64,000 nucleotides of DNA from Histomonas meleagridis (lineage: Eukaryota > Parabasalia > Tritrichomonadida > Dientamoebidae). Positions 5,939 through 18,968 of the stretch are shown in pieces. Below the pieces are notes generated by a model. The model worked only from the letters and a program-made list of their open reading frames with translations, did not search any database and had not been told where the DNA came from. The stretch lies in NCBI GenBank assembly GCA_020186115.1, contig WSYJ01000020.1, forward strand, positions 62,001-126,000. Direction: 5' to 3'. The translations under genes were made by a program, and so were the position numbers. The first letter of the stretch is position 1. Every line of letters starts with the position of its first letter.

Positions 5939-7990
5939 ATGGAAGAAAACCAAAGTAAAGAAAATGAAGTTAATGTCCCTTATACTCAACAATCCCTACC
6001 TCCTTTTGGGCGAATATTAGAAATTCTTGAACAAATAATTTTCGATTTAAAAGAAGATCAAATAAATGAATCAGCTAACAAAATATTCAAATTATTTGAG
6101 TTTAATTTTCCTTGTTCACCTTATGATATTATTAGTCAAATAATTTATTCATCTTTTGTTTCACAAATGAATGATTTTAAACCATATTTTTCTTTGATTA
6201 AAATTATAAATGAAAATAATCATGAAATAATAAATGCATTTTCACAGTTTCTACTTTCTTTAGATTCACAAGAGTCTTTTTTTCTTCTCGAGAAGTTGAT
6301 TGATTATAAATTTATATCACCAAATTTGGTTACAAATAAAATGAAAATATTTTTTGCTCATCACATGTTAGAAGAAGACATAGATCGATTAAAATATAGA
6401 GCATTTAGTGGATATTTCTTTAAAAATATTGAAGAACTCAGAAAAAACAATTGGGAACTTCATAAGAAATTAATTGAAGAAGGAGTTAATACGAATGAAA
6501 TATCGAAAATAATTCGAAATGATGAAATCGAAAAACTTCAAGAAATATCATCACAAACAAAATTTGATTTTAATCAAACTATTGAGCCATCGCTTTATGA
6601 AAGATGTGACTTTATTAATCATGAAAATGTTACATTAATTGATTATGCAGCATTTTTTGGATCAATTAAATGTTTTAAATATTTACTTATGAATGGTTCT
6701 AATATAAAAAACTGTGGAAAATATGCTGTTGTGAGTGGAAATCTTGAAATAATTCATTTGTGTGAACAAAATCATTCTTCATTCGAAGGTTCTTTAGAAG
6801 CAGCAATTGAGTTTCATAGAAATGATATCTTTAAATATTTATGTGAAAATGAAGTTGTTGAACCTTTTGATAATATTTCTAAATTATTTTTGTTTTCAAA
6901 TAAACTTGTTAATGTTAGACTTTTTAATTATGTTCTTAGCCAAAAAAGAACTGACATAAATGTAAGAAATGTAAATTTGTTTTGTTTAAAATTTTTTAAT
7001 AAAATTTGGAAATTATTTTTAATATATAAAACTCCACTTATGTTTGCATCGGAACATGATAATATAGTAATTGCACAATTACTTCTTGAAAAAAAAGGAA
7101 TTGAATTAAATGCTAAAGAATTTTATTTGTTCTTAATGAAATTTAATTTGATTATTTAAAGTTAATATATGTATTTTGATGTTCCATAAAATTTTTTCAA
7201 ATTTATGTAAAATATTTTGGACTGCATTAATGTTTGCATCTGATAATGGACATTATAGAATGGTTAAATTACTTCTTGAGCAAAAAGGAATCGATATTAA
7301 TGCTAAAGATGTACATTTGTTACTTCTTGGATTTATTTTATTAATTCGATATTCAAAAAAATTAATTGGAATTTTATCAAATAATTTTCTACAGCACTTA
7401 TGATAGCTTCTGAAAAAGGTAGAAATGATATTGTTGAATTACTTCTTGAACAAGACGGAATTGATGTTAATGTTAAAAATATTTAATGTTTTTAATTCAT
7501 GTTTTTTTTAAATGTTTTGCTATATTTATATAAGATATAAGGAAATAATTTTAATTACTTGAAACAGCTCTTATGATTGCAATCAATCACAATCGAATTG
7601 AAATTATGAAATTACTTCTTAAACATAAAAAAATTGATGTTAATGCAAAAGAAATTTATTAATTTTATTCAAAGTTTAATTTCTCAATTTATTGCTATTC
7701 TAAAAATATATTTGGTGTTTTTTTATTTTATTTTGGACTGCTCTTATAAAGGCTACTCGATCTAATAAAGTTGAAATGGTGAAACTTCTTCTTGAACATG
7801 ATGGAACTGATATCAATATCAAATCTATGAATATAAAATATTTGATGTTTGTATTGATTGTTTAATTTTTCGAAATAATATTTGAAGTATATTCAATTTA
7901 TTTAAAACAGCATTAATGATTGCATCAGAAAGAGGTTACAATGAAATTGTTAAATTACTGACTAATTATGAAAAATTTAAGAAAAAGTAA
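5939..7990 (+). CDS. DUF3447/ankyrin-repeat protein interrupted by spacers
   Basis: ATG at 5939 follows an initiator-like TCATTTTT directly upstream. Codons 1-344 are continuous and encode the N-terminal helical domain and degenerate ankyrin repeats typical of the trichomonad DUF3447/ankyrin family (NVTLIDYAAFFGSIKCFKYLL, NLEIIHLCEQ). After DINVRN at about 6970 the gene continues as six ankyrin modules (TALMFAS..., VKLLLEQ..., DINAKD) at 7031, 7221, 7391, 7564, 7737 and 7907, with spacers of 60, 100, 80, 83, 83 and 80 nt. The first spacer happens to be open, so a plain reading frame runs on to 7159. The last module ends in KKK and a TAA inside a run of A, like a normal gene end. It is either an intron-containing gene with non-canonical junctions or a pseudogene. 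Scaffold-type binding is the likely role. Confidence 0.6.
7031..7990 (+). repeat. Tandem array: ankyrin module plus AT-rich spacer
   Basis: Module starts at 7031, 7221, 7391, 7564, 7737 and 7907 give unit lengths of 190, 170, 173, 173 and 170 bp. Each module is 30 codons without stop or frameshift, from ACN-GCN (or ACT-CCA) to the AAT-NNN-AAA codons of the NAK motif. The spacers are almost pure A/T with stops in most frames. Module frames differ (2,0,2,1,0,2), so the spacers must be removed or bypassed to make one protein. Confidence 0.8.
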
Positions 7991-8391
7991 AAAAAAATGT
8001 TTACTTACTTTCCCATACATATGTTCCAAATATTTTATATAATATCATTAAATTTTTATTCCCCAATACATTCTTTTGGTTTCAAAAAAAATGTTATATT
8101 TGTCTACATTAAACTAATACATTAAATTTTTTTCTTTTTGATAAGTTTTATAACTTTATTTTTATATTTTATTTGAAAATATTGGAAAAAAATTTTTAAT
8201 TTTTTAAATCAAATCATTTTATGGAAAAAAGAGAAAATTTCAAACCCCGTTCAACAACATCAAACCAATTTAGTAATCGAAGTTTTAATTCACAATGTAA
8301 TATCAAATCTTTCCATGGGTATTAATTGAATATTCATCCAAAGAGACCAATTTAAACAATCTCTCTCTCTCTCTATAAATATATATATATA
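7991..8391. other. AT-rich intergenic with CT and AT microsatellites
   Basis: This is A/T-rich DNA between the ankyrin gene end and the mariner. A short CT repeat followed by an AT repeat (about 8361-8391) abuts the left end of the transposon. The only gene-like signal is the 34-codon frame at 8221. Confidence 0.6.
8221..8325 (+). CDS. 34-codon frame with ankyrin-gene-like start region
   Basis: ATG at 8221 is preceded by AAATCATTTT, nearly the same as the AAATCATTTTT before the ankyrin gene ATG at 5939. The frame encodes a short basic, Ser/Asn-rich peptide beginning MEKRENFKPRSTTSNQF and stops at TAA. It could be a genuine small gene, but the shared start context also fits a duplicated promoter with a truncated gene behind it. 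No domain is recognisable. Confidence 0.3.
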   Translation: MEKRENFKPRSTTSNQFSNRSFNSQCNIKSFHGY

Positions 8392-9606
8392 CAGGGGGGG
8401 CAAAAAGTAATGAGCCCCCACCCTAACTCTAAATAATAAAATTATATAAATAAAACATATATTTTTTATAAGATTAGAAAGTGTATAAAATTTTTGTTTA
8501 TTATGACATTTGAATATATTTGCTATATAATGAGATTTTTTTGTTTAAATATGTCGATAGTCAAGAAAACGTTAAAATGTTACATTTCATGAATCCCTCC
8601 GAAAAGTGGGAACAGCGAATTATCATCAAATATTGCTCTATCTTTGAAGAGAAAGGCTTCAAAGGTTCAAAAATTGTAATTTTTCGTGTATGGACAAGGA
8701 ACGTGCGGAAGACCCCCTTCAAATCTTTTTTATTAATTTTAAATTACCTTCAAAAGTTTCCATATTATTTATGCCAAAAAATAGCACAGTACTTCGACAT
8801 CTCACATCACATTGTGAAAGAAATTCTACAAAGGGATCTGCAGATTAGAAAATATTCAGAGAAGTGAATGCCGTATTAATTGTCAAATGTTGACAAAAAG
8901 TGTTGAGTCGAAAGTGCAAATGGGATCCCATTCTCGAAGAACTTAGTTATGATGCACAAAATAATTATGAACATATATAAAAAAAAGATGAATCGTGGTA
9001 TATATAGTTAAATCAAGTTTAATGTTTGCACAATTCCGAGAAAAAGTAGATTTAAGAATTCATCAGACAATTCCATCGAAGGAAACTTTGATCACAGGTA
9101 CTAATTTGATTGCTATTGAAGACCTGCCAAAAGGAAGAAGGTTCACTCAAGATTATTTTATTGATAATATAAATAACATGATATCCAATGCAAATAGGAG
9201 ATTTCTGTAAAAAAAATTGTCTGAATTGTAGAATTAATCTGGACAATGCAAAATCTCACATTGTATCAAAAGTAACTCAATTTCTGGCCGATAAAGAACT
9301 AATTGAAATCCACACCAACCATATAGTCCAGACATGTGTTCTTGTGATTTCTGGTTTATTGGAAGATCTAAAAAACTCTTAAAGGATGTGGAAATAACGG
9401 ATTCTGAAATGATTGTCGATAAATTAATTGACATATGGAATGGGATCTATTTTGAGGAAAATTAAGTGGTATATAGGGAATGGGAAAAAAGATGTATATG
9501 AATTATTGAACACGAAATGGAGTAATATCCATTACAATAAGCAAAAACAATTTTTATATTATATTCATCAGAATAGGGGTGGGCTCATTATTACTTTTTA
9601 CCCCTC
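8392..9606 (+). mobile_element. Decayed mariner-family element
   Basis: Imperfect terminal inverted repeats are visible: the left end reads CAGGGGGGGCAAAAAGTAAT and the right end is its approximate complement, continuing into TGAGCCC...ACCCTA. Both ends are flanked by TA (8390-8391 and 9607-9608), the mariner target duplication. The length of about 1.2 kb fits a single-gene mariner. The enclosed transposase is heavily mutated, so this is an old insertion. Confidence 0.8.
8578..9535 (+). pseudogene. Mariner transposase remnant
   Basis: Fragments in several frames recall a mariner transposase. There is an N-terminal piece (HFMNPSEKWEQRIIIKYC), an LDNAKSH motif holding the second catalytic Asp near 9240, and, after a frameshift, a YSPDMCSCDFW motif near 9325-9350 holding the third. 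Counting across the frameshift gives about 34 residues between these two Asp residues, the D34D spacing of true mariners. Multiple stops and at least one frameshift exclude activity. Confidence 0.7.
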
Positions 9607-9608
9607 TA

Positions 9609-10246
9609 TATATATTGCAATTTTAATAAGAACATTGGAACGTCTTTGTAAACCATATATAATGGCATTGAAACGAATTAGATATCCAAACAAGAAAAAG
9701 CTATTCATTTTTATATCTGCAGAAACAAAGAAATTATTTATTAATAATTAGGTAATTTTATTAATAATGTGTTTATAAGTATTTCTAATGTGATGAGGCT
9801 TGTTTCAAAATTTAGTTATAACTAAAACAGAAAAAGTATTCATTTTAATAATTTGGAATTTTTTTAAATAATTTAAAATATGTTTTAATTATTTAGAATA
9901 TGTTTTAATAATTAAGGGAGACTTCATTTGCAGTAAAACATGAAATCAAGTTTCACTAAGCATAATATGTTTCAAAATAATTTAACAACATTAGAAAAAA
10001 TGCTCAAACTCCTTAAAACCCTCCTAATACATAAAAGATTGATTTCGTTTTTCTAAAAGTTTTGTTGTGATTCATCAAAAAATGATCGATAGCTTTTTTT
10101 GAATTGTTTATCAGACGACAAAAATTCAGTAAATATCAAATTTCTTCAACTGAGAAACAATCGTTCAAGCTTGAACGGCGAATTTTCCTAAAAAGTGCTT
10201 TTACACTTTTGTTCGTAAAGATTTTAACGTTTTTTAACACGAAAGA
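9609..10246. other. AT-rich intergenic
   Basis: No gene is seen. The segment just before the next gene carries AACGTT at about 10228-10233, less than 20 bp from the ATG. Confidence 0.5.
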
Positions 10247-14347: not shown

Positions 14348-14903
14348 TAAACATAAATGTTTTTATTCATTTGTTTATTTAAAAAACATATCAAACAACA
14401 TGAAATATATTATTCTTTTTCTTATATCAGTTATTACGAATTTTCCAAAGATAACCAATGCAATGAAGGCACACATGAAAAGCATAATTAACTTATTTTG
14501 TTTTAATTCAGATAGATTGAGAGATAAATGTTTGTTTTAAATTAGGACGACAAAAAGATAAAGAAAAATTAACAGAAGAAAAGACGACTGCAGAAGAGAG
14601 AGAAAAACAATTAGAAGAAAGTAAAAGTGTTCCTACTGAAGATCCACCTAAAAAGTTAAAAGAAAAATCACCAGGGGAACACAATAGTAAAAAAAAAATC
14701 GTGAACAACACTTTTCAAAAAGTGGTATCAATTTGTCAAAGTATCGTATTATTTTCACTACTTTACACCCTTGAGTTTACAGGTTTGGCCAAAGCCCGTA
14801 CTTTTTAGATATCTCACAATTTCTTGGGTTGATCAGAAATAATTGAATATCGGTCGAACTTTTTGATATATTATTCATACCGGTTCTATTCAATAATTTG
14901 ACT
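14348..14903. other. Spacer holding a start-less open frame
   Basis: This is the gap between the solenoid gene and the BspA-like gene. The only notable content is the ATG-less open frame at about 14521-14808. Confidence 0.4.
14521..14808 (+). pseudogene. Lys/Glu-rich open frame lacking an ATG
   Basis: About 95 codons are open without an ATG. They read as a charged coiled-coil-like stretch (QKDKEKLTEEKTTAEEREK), a Pro/Lys part (PTEDPPKKLKEKSPGEH) and a hydrophobic end (VVSICQSIVLFSLLYTLEF). The length is more than expected by chance in such AT-rich DNA and the charge pattern looks coding. It may be the remnant of an upstream gene or a lost exon. The function is unknown. Confidence 0.25.
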
Positions 14904-17900
14904 ATGTGGCAAGCCAATTATCCTGATTTCAAACTAAGTCTCATGCAGACTTCCCCCTTAATGAAATTAATTCCCGGATTTTTTTTGCTCTATGGATTAT
15001 ATGATTGGCACAAGACATTTGCCACTAGGAACAGGTTTGAAATTCAATTAAATTATTCTGACTCTAAGGTAAGCAAATTTTACTCACAAATGTCACATTC
15101 TGAGAAATTGTTCTCTCAAGGAATTAAGAATCTGCCACACATTATTTATAATATTTGGTTTCTTACGGGTGTACAACCATCTAATTCAAAATATTCTTTA
15201 AATTTAATGAGCTTTCTAAGCTTTTATTTTGGTTCATCACAAATTTTCTCTGATATTTTTTTAGTCAAAATCATTTTAACATTTTTTTTATTTATCTGTA
15301 TTTGTTATTTCTTGATCTCCAAAACAATAAAAAGTGTTCGAAATATCTTCAAAGAAGTCAATAACCAAAAAAATATGGCCTTTTTATTTATGATTCTATT
15401 TTTTGTGCATTCATTTGAAATATATAATTCAGAAACTCAAACGCTTACCATAACCAATTCTAGTGAATTTAATAAGAGAAACACATATAACACAGCATTA
15501 CAAGTTAATATTAATGGTATTGATGATATTGAAGATAATGCCTTTGTGAGATGGACAACTTTGATCTCTGTAGAAATCGGGAACTCAGTTTATTCAATTG
15601 GTGAATATTCTTTTGGATATTGTACTTCTCTAGAAAACATAACTATTGGAGATAATGTTAAATCAATTGGCGATTATGCATTTCGACAATGTAGTAAATT
15701 AAACGAAATTAATTTCGGGGAAAATTTAACTTCAATTGGAGTTTATTCGTTTTATTTGTGTATATCTTTAACTGAAATAATAATTCCAGATTTAGTTTCA
15801 TCGATAGGAAATTATGCATTCCGTGGATGTTCATCATTATTAAGTATTACAATCCCAGACTTAGTTAATGAAATTAATCTTTATACATTTCATTCATGTA
15901 CAAGTCTAGAAACAGTTTTACTTGGAGAAAATATATCATCAATTAAGAATTACGCATTTATTTCATGTTCTTCATTAAAAAGCATCACAATTCCAAAATC
16001 AGTAACTTCGATTGGAACAGCTGTATTTATGGGATGTATAAGTTTGCAGACAATTCAAGTATCAAATGAAAATGAAAAATATTCTTCAAGTGGTGGTATT
16101 CTTTATAATAAGGCTGCTACAACACTTATTTGTTTTCCTGCTGGAAATTCTTATGCAAGTTTTCAAGTACCAAATACAGTTACAAAGATCGATTCTTATT
16201 CATTTTATCAATGTTCTTCATTAGGAAAAGTTTCTCTTCCAGATCCATTAACATCAGTTGGTAATTATGCATTTTATCAATGCTATAAAATAGAATCATT
16301 TACATTTGGTGAAAAAGTAAAAACAATTGGAAATTATGCATTTTATTCATGTATTTTAATAGGATCAATTGTAATCCCAGATAAAGTTACTAGTATTGGA
16401 ACATATGCATTTAGTAATTGTACAAATATAGGAAAAGTTACACTTGGTGCAAAAGTTCAAAAAATTAATAATTTTGCATTTAGTCTCTGTATTTCATTAA
16501 AAACGATTCAAATTCCAGCCTCAGTTAATACAATTGGAACACACCCATTTATGGGATGTAAGTCACTTGAATTTATTGATGTATCAACTGAAAACTCTGA
16601 TTATACAAATGATGATAATGGAATTCTTTATAACAAAAATAAGACCACACTCATTTGTTATCCAGCAGGAGTTACACAGCAATCATTTCAAATTTCAAAC
16701 GCAATTATGACAATTAATGATTATGCGTTTTATCAATGTATATTTTTAGAAAATATAATAATTCCTGTTACAATAAATTCTATCGGTAATTATGTGTTTT
16801 ATGAATGTTCATCATTATTAAACATTGAAATCCCAAATCAGATTACTTCAATTGGAGATTATGAGTTTTATAATTGTTCTGATTTAGAAACAGTAATAAT
16901 CGGAACAAATGTAAAAACAATTGGAACTTATGCATTTTATTTTTGTACATCTTTAGCGAATATTAATATTCCAGAATCAATTACTTCAATTGGAAGTTAT
17001 GCATTCTCTGAATGTTCTTTGTTATTACAAATAACAATTCCAAATTTAGTTTCTTTAATCGAAACATATTCATTTTATTCTTGTTCCAATTTAGCAAAAG
17101 TTAATATAGGTGAAAGTGTTATAACAATTGGTCCATCTGCTTTTCAACTATGTGAGAAATTAGAAACAGTAACAATTGAATCAAATTTGAAAGAAATTCA
17201 AAATAATGCATTTCGATCATGTTCTTCCTTATTGTATATTAATATTCCAAATTCAGTAACAACAATTGGAGCAAATTCATTTTATTCGTGTTCTAATTTA
17301 ATGAATGTTACAATTCCTGATTCGGTTTTAACAATTGGAAGTTCGGTATTTTATCAATGTATAAATCTTGAAAAAGCAATTGTTGGTAATGGAGTTTCAA
17401 CAGTTAGTAATAGTGCATTTCGTTATTGTAATAGTTTATATAATGTTTCATTTGGTAAAAATATAACAACATTTGAAAATTATGCATTTAGTAATTGCAA
17501 ATCTTTATCAAACATTACAATTCCAATATCAACAACAACAATTGGAAATTATGCATTTTCTAAAACTATAATAACAAGCATCATAATTCCAAATTTAGTT
17601 ACTTCAATTGGAAATTATGCTTTTTATTCATGTTCTGAACTTAAAATCGTTAATATTGGAAATAATGTGATATCTATTGGAACTTCTGCATTTCGCTCAT
17701 GTATTTTATTAAAAAACATTTCTCTTGATGAAAATTTGGAAACAATTGGTCCATATGCATTTTATCAATGCCCTTTATTGACTTTAATTATTCCAAATTT
17801 AGTAACATCAATTGGAAATAATGCATTTTACAAATGCGTAGATTTAAAAACAGTTGTCATAGGAGAAAATGTTATAACGATTGGAAATAATGCATTTCAG

Positions 17901-18968
17901 CAATGTGAAAAATTAGAAGCAGTTCAAATTGGAAATAATGTAAATACAATTGGAACATCTTCATTTCAAGGATGCACTTTAATAACAAATATTACAATTC
18001 CCAATCTAGTAACATCAATTGGTAATTATGCATTTCAAAACTGCGAAGGTTTAGAAACAATAATCATTGGCGAAAGTGTTGAATCAATTGGAAGTTATGC
18101 ATTTCAAAACTGTAATAATCTTAAATGTGTTTATTACACAGGATATACATCACCGAAATCCATAAATTCAAATGCATTCGAAAATGTACAAATAGGATAT
18201 GTAATGACATCTGATTTATATGAAGAAACAACGTTTGGTAAATTTGATGTATCTAAAGGTTCATCAATTGAAGGATGTGCTCAATATCCTTGGCCAACGC
18301 ATACGTTCACAAATTCAAATTCATTTACAAATTCAAACACATTTTCAAATACATTTACTAAATCAAACACATTTACAAAATCAAATACATTTTCGAGTTC
18401 AAATACATATACAAAATCAAATGTATTTACAAAATCAAATGTATTTACTAACTCAAATACATTTACTTCTTCGAAACCATTTGGTTTAACATTTATTAAG
18501 ACACTAATTTATTCAGAATTAATTACACAAACAGTTATACCTAAAACTGTTACCACGAACACTATTACTCTTTCAATAATTAGTTCATCATATTCATATA
18601 TTGAAACAATGTTTATTTATTATAACTATACAGTTATTGCATATTCATCATATATTTCATATTATACGGGATTTTATTCAATTGTTAAGCAAAATGAAAA
18701 TATAACAAATAATGATCAAAGTAATTCTAATCTAATTATAATTATTGTTTGCGTTTGTGTGGCAGTAGTTATAATTGTTGTTGTACTTGTAATACTTTTA
18801 ATCAGAATTAGAAATAAAAAGGAACACAACGAAGAAAGTGCTGTTGATGAAAATATGGATAATGACTATAACCTTTCAACTAATAACTTGTCAATGAATA
18901 TATCCAATATTTCAGAAGATCCATTCGCTGAAGATTTCAAAGAAGATGAGTTCTTTGGTGCAATATAA
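14904..18968 (+). CDS. BspA-like leucine-rich-repeat surface protein
   Basis: Roughly three dozen 23-residue LRR_5-type repeats (IGNYAFYSCSSL, then IxIPNxVTS) fill residues 180-1100, the signature of the trichomonad BspA-like surface family. They are followed by a Ser/Thr/Asn hexad region (TNSNTFTKSNTF..., about 18,301-18,480), a single transmembrane helix (IIIIVCVCVAVVIIVVVLVI) and an acidic tail with EDPFAEDF and DEFFGAI. This is a type I topology with an ectodomain suited to adhesion. A classical signal peptide, MAFLFMILFFVHSFEIYN, begins at an internal ATG at 15375, which may be the real start. However, the 157 codons before it are open and include another hydrophobic segment (IILTFFLFICICYFLIS). 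The stop lies in TATAAAA. Confidence 0.85.
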   Translation: MWQANYPDFKLSLMQTSPLMKLIPGFFLLYGLYDWHKTFATRNRFEIQLNYSDSKVSKFYSQMSHSEKLFSQGIKNLPHIIYNIWFLTGVQPSNSKYSLNLMSFLSFYFGSSQIFSDIFLVKIILTFFLFICICYFLISKTIKSVRNIFKEVNNQKNMAFLFMILFFVHSFEIYNSETQTLTITNSSEFNKRNTYNTALQVNINGIDDIEDNAFVRWTTLISVEIGNSVYSIGEYSFGYCTSLENITIGDNVKSIGDYAFRQCSKLNEINFGENLTSIGVYSFYLCISLTEIIIPDLVSSIGNYAFRGCSSLLSITIPDLVNEINLYTFHSCTSLETVLLGENISSIKNYAFISCSSLKSITIPKSVTSIGTAVFMGCISLQTIQVSNENEKYSSSGGILYNKAATTLICFPAGNSYASFQVPNTVTKIDSYSFYQCSSLGKVSLPDPLTSVGNYAFYQCYKIESFTFGEKVKTIGNYAFYSCILIGSIVIPDKVTSIGTYAFSNCTNIGKVTLGAKVQKINNFAFSLCISLKTIQIPASVNTIGTHPFMGCKSLEFIDVSTENSDYTNDDNGILYNKNKTTLICYPAGVTQQSFQISNAIMTINDYAFYQCIFLENIIIPVTINSIGNYVFYECSSLLNIEIPNQITSIGDYEFYNCSDLETVIIGTNVKTIGTYAFYFCTSLANINIPESITSIGSYAFSECSLLLQITIPNLVSLIETYSFYSCSNLAKVNIGESVITIGPSAFQLCEKLETVTIESNLKEIQNNAFRSCSSLLYINIPNSVTTIGANSFYSCSNLMNVTIPDSVLTIGSSVFYQCINLEKAIVGNGVSTVSNSAFRYCNSLYNVSFGKNITTFENYAFSNCKSLSNITIPISTTTIGNYAFSKTIITSIIIPNLVTSIGNYAFYSCSELKIVNIGNNVISIGTSAFRSCILLKNISLDENLETIGPYAFYQCPLLTLIIPNLVTSIGNNAFYKCVDLKTVVIGENVITIGNNAFQQCEKLEAVQIGNNVNTIGTSSFQGCTLITNITIPNLVTSIGNYAFQNCEGLETIIIGESVESIGSYAFQNCNNLKCVYYTGYTSPKSINSNAFENVQIGYVMTSDLYEETTFGKFDVSKGSSIEGCAQYPWPTHTFTNSNSFTNSNTFSNTFTKSNTFTKSNTFSSSNTYTKSNVFTKSNVFTNSNTFTSSKPFGLTFIKTLIYSELITQTVIPKTVTTNTITLSIISSSYSYIETMFIYYNYTVIAYSSYISYYTGFYSIVKQNENITNNDQSNSNLIIIIVCVCVAVVIIVVVLVILLIRIRNKKEHNEESAVDENMDNDYNLSTNNLSMNISNISEDPFAEDFKEDEFFGAI
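18301..18480 (+). repeat. Ser/Thr/Asn short-period repeat in the BspA-like stalk
   Basis: Reiterated 18-nt units encode variants of FTKSNT. The segment lies between the LRR domain and the membrane helix, where a flexible, probably glycosylated stalk is expected. Confidence 0.8.

Follow-up and report, generated by a model that had tools for sequence, protein, structure and literature searches.

Ankyrin arrays with length-quantised spacers in Histomonas meleagridis: a candidate family of non-canonical introns

An ankyrin gene in pieces

How can a gene keep a row of ankyrin repeats as protein code when stop-containing, A/T-rich DNA lies between one repeat and the next? The question is raised by a gene of Histomonas meleagridis, a parasite of poultry. 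The gene lies in a window of 64,000 nucleotides (G000:C17:62001-126000; contig WSYJ01000020.1, positions 62,001 to 126,000), and the genome searched along with it was the H. meleagridis assembly of 43.28 Mb in 121 contigs. The genome report on a virulent strain gives 43.4 Mb, 187 contigs, a GC content of 28.66% and 11,119 genes, and introns in it are scarce, numbering 573 with at most one per gene (PMC8529796).

The gene, on the forward strand, is made of an N-terminal DUF3447 domain followed by six ankyrin modules (7031-7990). The candidate N-terminal exon (5939-6964, within an open reading frame at 5939-7159) codes for DUF3447 and a partial ankyrin domain and has relatives P0001-P0014; together with module 1, it matches the Pfam DUF3447 and Ank profiles, the ankyrin ones (PF00023/PF12796) above cut-off, as ankyrin sequences do throughout the genome. 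The modules, located with a module profile, start at 7031, 7221, 7391, 7564, 7737, and 7907 and end at 7114, 7304, 7474, 7647, 7820, and 7990, respectively. The sixth is C-terminal according to the terminal-module analysis and brings its own natural stop at 7990.

Measured from the end of the “N-A” codons to the “T” codon, the six spacers are 66, 106, 86, 89, 89, and 86 nt long and make up 522 nt in all. Spacer 1 (6965-7030; 6 + 3x20 nt) is open in frame and is 67% identical to the class B consensus minus one codon (the classes are described below). Spacer 2 (7115-7220; 6 + 5x20) reaches 72% identity to the 86-nt consensus, the best of 87 single 20-nt omissions. Spacers 3 (7305-7390) and 6 (7821-7906), both 6 + 4x20, match the 86-nt class A consensus at 72% and 69% of positions, compared with a mean of 39-41% and a maximum of 58% for shuffled sequences. 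Spacers 4 (7475-7563) and 5 (7648-7736), both 9 + 4x20 by the length grid and a frame check, contain stops and have a raw identity to the consensus of just 58-59%. In the diverged spacers of the window, the self-similarity peak at 20 nt persists (0.48 versus 0.33-0.46 at other lags of 8-30 nt).

Much of what the first-pass annotation had seen in this gene holds. Its six ankyrin modules are real, and they belong to a pattern far larger than one gene. The spacers it gave as 60, 100, 80, 83, 83, and 80 nt are the lengths above minus 6, that is, 20k or 20k+3, and the last four (86, 89, 89, and 86 nt) are all 2 mod 3. A GT at the 5' edge, after 6 nt, can indeed be read in just two of the six, spacers 1 and 3. 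The description of the spacers as unpreserved, on the other hand, was wrong, given that the lengths follow a grid which holds throughout the genome and that the 86-nt spacers of the window are 72% and 69% like the consensus.

A genome-wide family on a 20-nucleotide grid

The spaced ankyrin family comprises about 100 or more genes in H. meleagridis. An ankyrin search of the genome returned many module pairs with stops in between, and forty loci (L009-L048) were picked for such spaced matches, so the share of interrupted genes cannot be read from these loci. In the window and the loci examined, the module profile gave 323 matches and none in the reversed control; the modules are therefore not due to chance. 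The annotation had proposed a genome search for similar ankyrin genes, with the spacer edges aligned. A search with the edge words AATGCWAAA..ACAGCACTT at a gap of 56-86 nt found 2,473 matches genome-wide and 0 in the reversed control. The same words at a gap of 3-33 nt matched just 4 times: one ordinary 18-nt linker (C77:71230), one single-unit spacer of 26 nt, and two others of 34 and 13 nt. Both counts demand the exact edge words.

The lengths of the spacers are quantised: 66, 86, and 106 nt, or 69 and 89 nt, each being 6 or 9 nt plus whole units of 20 nt. The class A spacer (86 nt) consists of K-D and four such units, the class B spacer (69 nt) of K-D-x and three, and class C spacers of K-D and two or more units of about ATATGTTTTAATAATTTGGA. 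The 20k+6 or 20k+9 rule fits 107 of the 116 spacers labelled A or B, a label that rests on module type, so that some of the spacers carrying it contain class C units; the 9 that lie off the grid are kept in the count. Among 100 matches listed of the 2,473, which can show just spacers of 59-89 nt, 95 fit and 5 do not, the latter again being kept in the count. In class C, the gaps between matches in L022, L031, L039, and L046 run mostly in 20-nt steps and reach 463 nt (L022 and L039), and the gaps may hide missed modules. A tandem array with a period near 69 bp and copies about 96% identical lies in L036 (4131-5858).

The edges of the spacers are also regular. Among 39 distinct 86-nt spacers, the codon before T takes 15 forms (E, K, N, W, D, R, and others), and the codon at this place is variable in ankyrin repeats generally. 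Directly before it stands TTT, in 35/39 distinct 86-nt and 30/37 distinct 69-nt spacers, and a near-invariant TTT beside a highly variable codon marks the 3' edge. The 5' side begins with a K codon in 35/39 and 32/37 of the same two sets, followed by D or N in 33/39 and 33/37.

This rigidity of length is unexpected for introns, which as a rule put up with small insertions and deletions. The rigidity relative to other non-coding DNA is suggestive, the alignments used for comparison being largely arrays or possibly coding. It may point to a step that reads length, or it may just reflect descent from 20-nt units with few small indels. One otherwise ordinary ankyrin gene, L004 (G000:C55:498684-501971, minus strand), has some linkers of 18 nt and others with 17 or 51 nt more, and the extra nucleotides all sit at the linker. 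It is possibly an early stage of spacer gain.

The beginnings and ends of the arrays were examined as well. The N-domain of the relative P0002 has 104 matches in the genome (103 candidates scored), with an internal stop in 6 rows and a best identity of 55% among the long matches listed first, in a list that favours intact copies. Each of the 34 N-domain rows from the loci examined and the window has a module 38-278 nt beyond the N-domain match. In 27 of them, the frame runs open through the whole match and meets a stop 0-117 nt later, mostly inside the first spacer; the other 7 have an early stop in the tested N-domain frame and are damaged copies. At the other end, 8 of 38 array rows close with a recognisable terminal module that carries its own stop, and the terminal type is the same in several class C arrays. 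The terminal module of L045 carries an internal stop.

Relatives in other genomes

The relatives P0001-P0014, from ENA contigs of 1.3-2.4 kb, are 42-52% identical, and most of them end at the first spacer; they probably belong to another species with the same gene design. One of them, P0004 (42-45% identical), reads through the first spacer, and the tail of its protein implies a spacer of exactly 86 nt. In P0008, there is an uninterrupted join, K-N-V-M-F-E-S-A-L-M. The DUF3447-ankyrin proteins P0160 and P0163 of Tritrichomonas foetus have a related N-domain (44-45% identical across roughly one third of the query) followed by ankyrin repeats, as in H. meleagridis, but their repeats are uninterrupted. 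This suggests that the uninterrupted state is probably the ancestral one.

The modules are kept as protein code

Are the modules still read as protein? Since the module profile favours intact modules, a frame-blind DNA model was added. It found 280 full-length modules, of which 275 differ in length from the model by a multiple of three; none of the 5 exceptions is among the 251 internal modules in loci with at least three. Those 251 contain no frameshift and 2 with stops, while 2 of 12 last modules are frameshifted. Outside these two sets stand 17 full-length matches from loci that have fewer than three, as well as 91 partial matches. The 38 partial matches in mid-array include 29 that are intact, 9 with a stop, and none split by a frameshift.

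Stops are distributed very differently in the modules and in the spacers beside them. Modules before 69-nt spacers have no stop in 41 cases, whereas a neutral simulation by codon, with mutation at the divergence of the modules’ own spacers, gave a mean of 13.3 and a minimum of 6 in 1000 runs. The adjacent 69-nt spacers have in-frame stops in 21/41 (neutral mean 15.3), and the open consensus of that class serves as an internal control for the stop counts. At framework codons, a set defined by the general ankyrin consensus, pN/pS is 0.68 (0.33-1.08), 0.55 (0.41-0.82), 0.52 (0.41-0.62), and 0.49 (0.41-0.60) in bins of rising spacer distance, compared with 1.23 to 1.06 at variable codons over the same bins, where each interval includes 1. 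Below 10% divergence, the value for all codons is 0.63-1.02. In class C, the modules are near-identical, with framework pN/pS of 1.24 and 0.92 at low divergence, so selection is neither shown nor excluded there.

For classes A and B, then, the flanking modules are kept in frame and under selection, and the spacers are not. Stops and frameshifts at the neutral rate, as a decayed pseudogene would have, were not found in the modules. Protected modules beside unprotected spacers make decay unlikely and mean that the spacers must be bypassed. The distance between spacers correlates with pS and pN of their modules (r = 0.43/0.41 for 86 nt, 0.50/0.35 for 69 nt, and 0.32/0.47 for 89 nt), from which it appears that the units were probably duplicated whole, with selection acting after the spacers had arrived.

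Splicing signals and the spliceosome

A spliceosome seems present in H. meleagridis. There are two copies of U2 snRNA with GUGUAGUA (80.5 and 79.3 bits), a U6 snRNA with ACAGAGA (43.7 bits, 0.3 under its cut-off of 44), and a Prp8 domain inside an open frame of 2333 aa. The U6 search also brought up L057 (G000:C79:35052-38102), a further array that resembles the one in the window.

The signals that such a spliceosome would use are another matter. In 22 of 41 69-nt spacers there is no GT anywhere to serve as a U2-type 5' end, and GT-AG edges were rejected on this ground. The trichomonad branch and 3' motif, ACTAACACACAG, whose absence had been pointed out in the window gene, occurs 3 times in the genome versus 2 in the reversed control, which is the chance level, and GTATGT with this motif 3-33 nt downstream has no match in the genome. 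The ACAG in the Thr-Ala codons was considered as a 3' splice site and is not a rule, as ACT-GCA and ACA-CCA occur.

A fold common to the spacers was not seen either. RNAalifold gave 0.0 for the 37 distinct 69-nt and the 39 distinct 86-nt spacers, no pairing of the spacer ends in RNA being conserved. Against mononucleotide shuffles, the mean MFE z is 0.14 and 0.29 for the two classes (25 spacers each) and -1.26 and -1.43 (n = 16 and 14) for class C. With many spacers lacking GT and no conserved fold, there is no known signal by which they could be recognised.

Translation of the spacers was also considered. The upstream frame runs open through only 17/37 distinct 69-nt and 13/39 distinct 86-nt spacers, which is too few, and 19/37 of the former are open in a third frame too. 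The lengths fall in all three phases (66, 86, and 106 nt) and stops are frequent, which excludes read-through as the rule. A deletion between direct repeats at TTATTTG was worked out by hand; it takes 69 nt from the 86-nt class and leaves the wrong frame.

Explanations for the spacers

How, then, might such genes make their protein? The cell probably removes the spacers by a route that has yet to be described. No joined modules turned up in the assembly, so removal at the level of RNA would be the most economical explanation, and on balance we consider it reasonably probable, judging from sequence, that the spacers are non-canonical introns. They would sit at one fixed place of the ankyrin linker, after K-D and before the variable residue that precedes T-A/P-L, and would have spread along with the repeat exons, by duplication, through a family of about 100 or more genes. 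Their removal from the RNA would join ankyrin repeats of 31 to 34 residues in frame. Candidate edges are a 5' one after K-D(-x)-I-Y and a 3' one at the near-invariant TTT before the variable codon, and the agent of removal could be the spliceosome or another activity. Of the three readings that the first-pass annotation had offered, it is the non-canonical intron class spread by exon duplication that seems to fit best, as modules and spacers co-vary, the same spacers recur throughout the genome, and GT-AG and the trichomonad motif are both absent. The young pseudogene fails, the coding constraint on the modules having persisted after the spacer arose.

The evidence from proteins counts against the intron reading. 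Two chimeric probes of limited length range found no joined array named Histomonas in the protein database. For the 12-module probe, five of the best 120 of 3,257 matches were examined (7,992 candidates scored), and the matches may include unlabelled Histomonas entries. The N-domain probe gave 23 matches there, P0015 being the sole one named Histomonas. The published annotation was made with AUGUSTUS trained on a transcriptome, and that neither probe found a joined Histomonas protein in spite of this is a point against introns. One proteomics study names a KANK1-like ankyrin protein that cannot be linked to the spaced genes (PMC10063853). In the open-licence literature, no paper on interrupted ankyrin linkers in Histomonas was found.

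Could the arrays be relics instead? Only the N-domain and the first ankyrin repeat would then be made, up to a stop near spacer 1, and the modules further downstream would be non-functional tails kept alike by recent duplication or recombination. The N-domain frames that stop 0-117 nt past the match in 27/34 rows, mostly in the first spacer, speak for this, as do the ENA relatives that mostly end at the same place, the lack of a joined protein with either probe, and a module pN/pS near 1 in class C. Such tails would hardly be expected to show 251 internal modules with no frameshift and just 2 stops, stops in 0/41 modules compared with 21/41 neighbouring spacers of the same age, a framework pN/pS of 0.49-0.68, or a terminal module with its own stop in 8/38 array rows, of one type in several class C arrays, and we regard relic arrays as rather unlikely. 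Far less probable is that the modules are silent donor cassettes, DNA templates from which intact ankyrin genes are assembled, in the way that lamprey VLR genes are built from cassettes. Intact modules, variable spacers, and diversified surface codons would suit such a system, but no intact acceptor was seen, the five matches of a protein search that take in both of its two modules all span an insertion of about 50 nt (150 of 9,277 candidates scored), and joins with a short gap number 4 versus 2,473.

Precise excision from the DNA of an expressed copy, as with the internal eliminated sequences (IESs) of ciliates, could account for quantised lengths with substitutions in between if the lengths were set by helical phase, 20 bp being about two turns. 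No joined copies were found in the assembly, however; there is no fixed 3' TA (T is the last base in fewer than half of the codons before ACA), the grid may merely reflect descent from 20-nt tandem units, and we know of no nuclear dimorphism in trichomonads, all of which makes excision a very long shot. Ordinary GT-AG spliceosomal introns with misplaced edges are likewise very improbable. A spliceosome is present, ACAG opens the T-A codons after 113/139 spacers in seven length classes, and the 86-nt class has a GT where the junction can slide; that GT and the ACAG taken as ends break the frame when worked out by hand, though, and GT is missing from 22/41 69-nt spacers and AG from T-A codons written ACT-GCA or ACA-CCA. 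Least probable of all is that the ribosome skips or shifts over the spacers by bypassing or frameshifting. The 17/37 distinct 69-nt spacers that are open in frame would make this easier, but ten or more events would be needed in some arrays, across spacer lengths of all phases, and no conserved take-off or landing codon and no conserved fold was seen.

Comparison with known systems

Non-canonical introns at the ankyrin linker would have parallels in several known systems. Introner elements are very many similar introns in one genome, scattered over unrelated genes. The spacers of H. meleagridis are likewise numerous and alike; they differ in that they are seen in ankyrin linkers, the sole place searched, and move with the exon. 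The internal eliminated sequences of ciliates are A/T-rich inserts in genes with preferred lengths, a description that suits the spacers as well, but those sequences have TA ends, whereas a fixed TA end is missing from the spacers, and the assembly yielded no joined DNA copy.

To our knowledge, the non-canonical introns of diplonemids are neither confined to one repeat linker nor quantised in length. They are many per genome, lack GT-AG ends despite a conserved spliceosome, as is the case here, and have ends that base-pair (PMC12621601); the H. meleagridis spacers have no conserved fold. Closer in lineage are the introns of Trichomonas vaginalis, types A and B, which are also short, trichomonad, and in some cases found in ankyrin genes. 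There, GT/AG ends and a branch site fused to the 3' motif characterise 63/63 active introns, and no transcripts with several introns are reported (PMC12316389), whereas neither signal turned up in the spacers, which are many per gene.

The spaced ankyrin arrays are a real, genome-wide, and puzzling feature of this parasite. Should the spacers be introns, they would number, from the 2,473 pattern matches alone, more than four times the published 573, with no known signal. A further idea is that several thousand A/T-rich inserts are taken out of the RNA of a single ankyrin family through a mechanism guided by their length or by the 20-nt repeat unit rather than by GT-AG or a branch site. The inserts would then form a class of introns distinct from the spliceosomal, group I/II, and tRNA types known so far, and would do so in a lineage that has been called intron-poor; we put the idea forward tentatively, as doubtful but worth considering. 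The system lends itself to a sharp and inexpensive test of how a metamonad that bears a spliceosome recognises introns without GT-AG. If the spacers stay in the mRNA, what needs explaining is why unread modules keep their code. The family is nearly invisible in the annotation, with one named H. meleagridis relative, P0015, in two length-limited protein searches.

Two other features of the window were noted. At 14898-18968 lies an uninterrupted BspA-type leucine-rich repeat gene of 1356 aa, which has internal DNA repeats and no spacers. In the stretch 8380-9470, short broken frames (8520-8867 and 9428-9751) adjoin a CT/TA repeat and a G-run followed by C-runs, and the whole looks like a decayed transposon.
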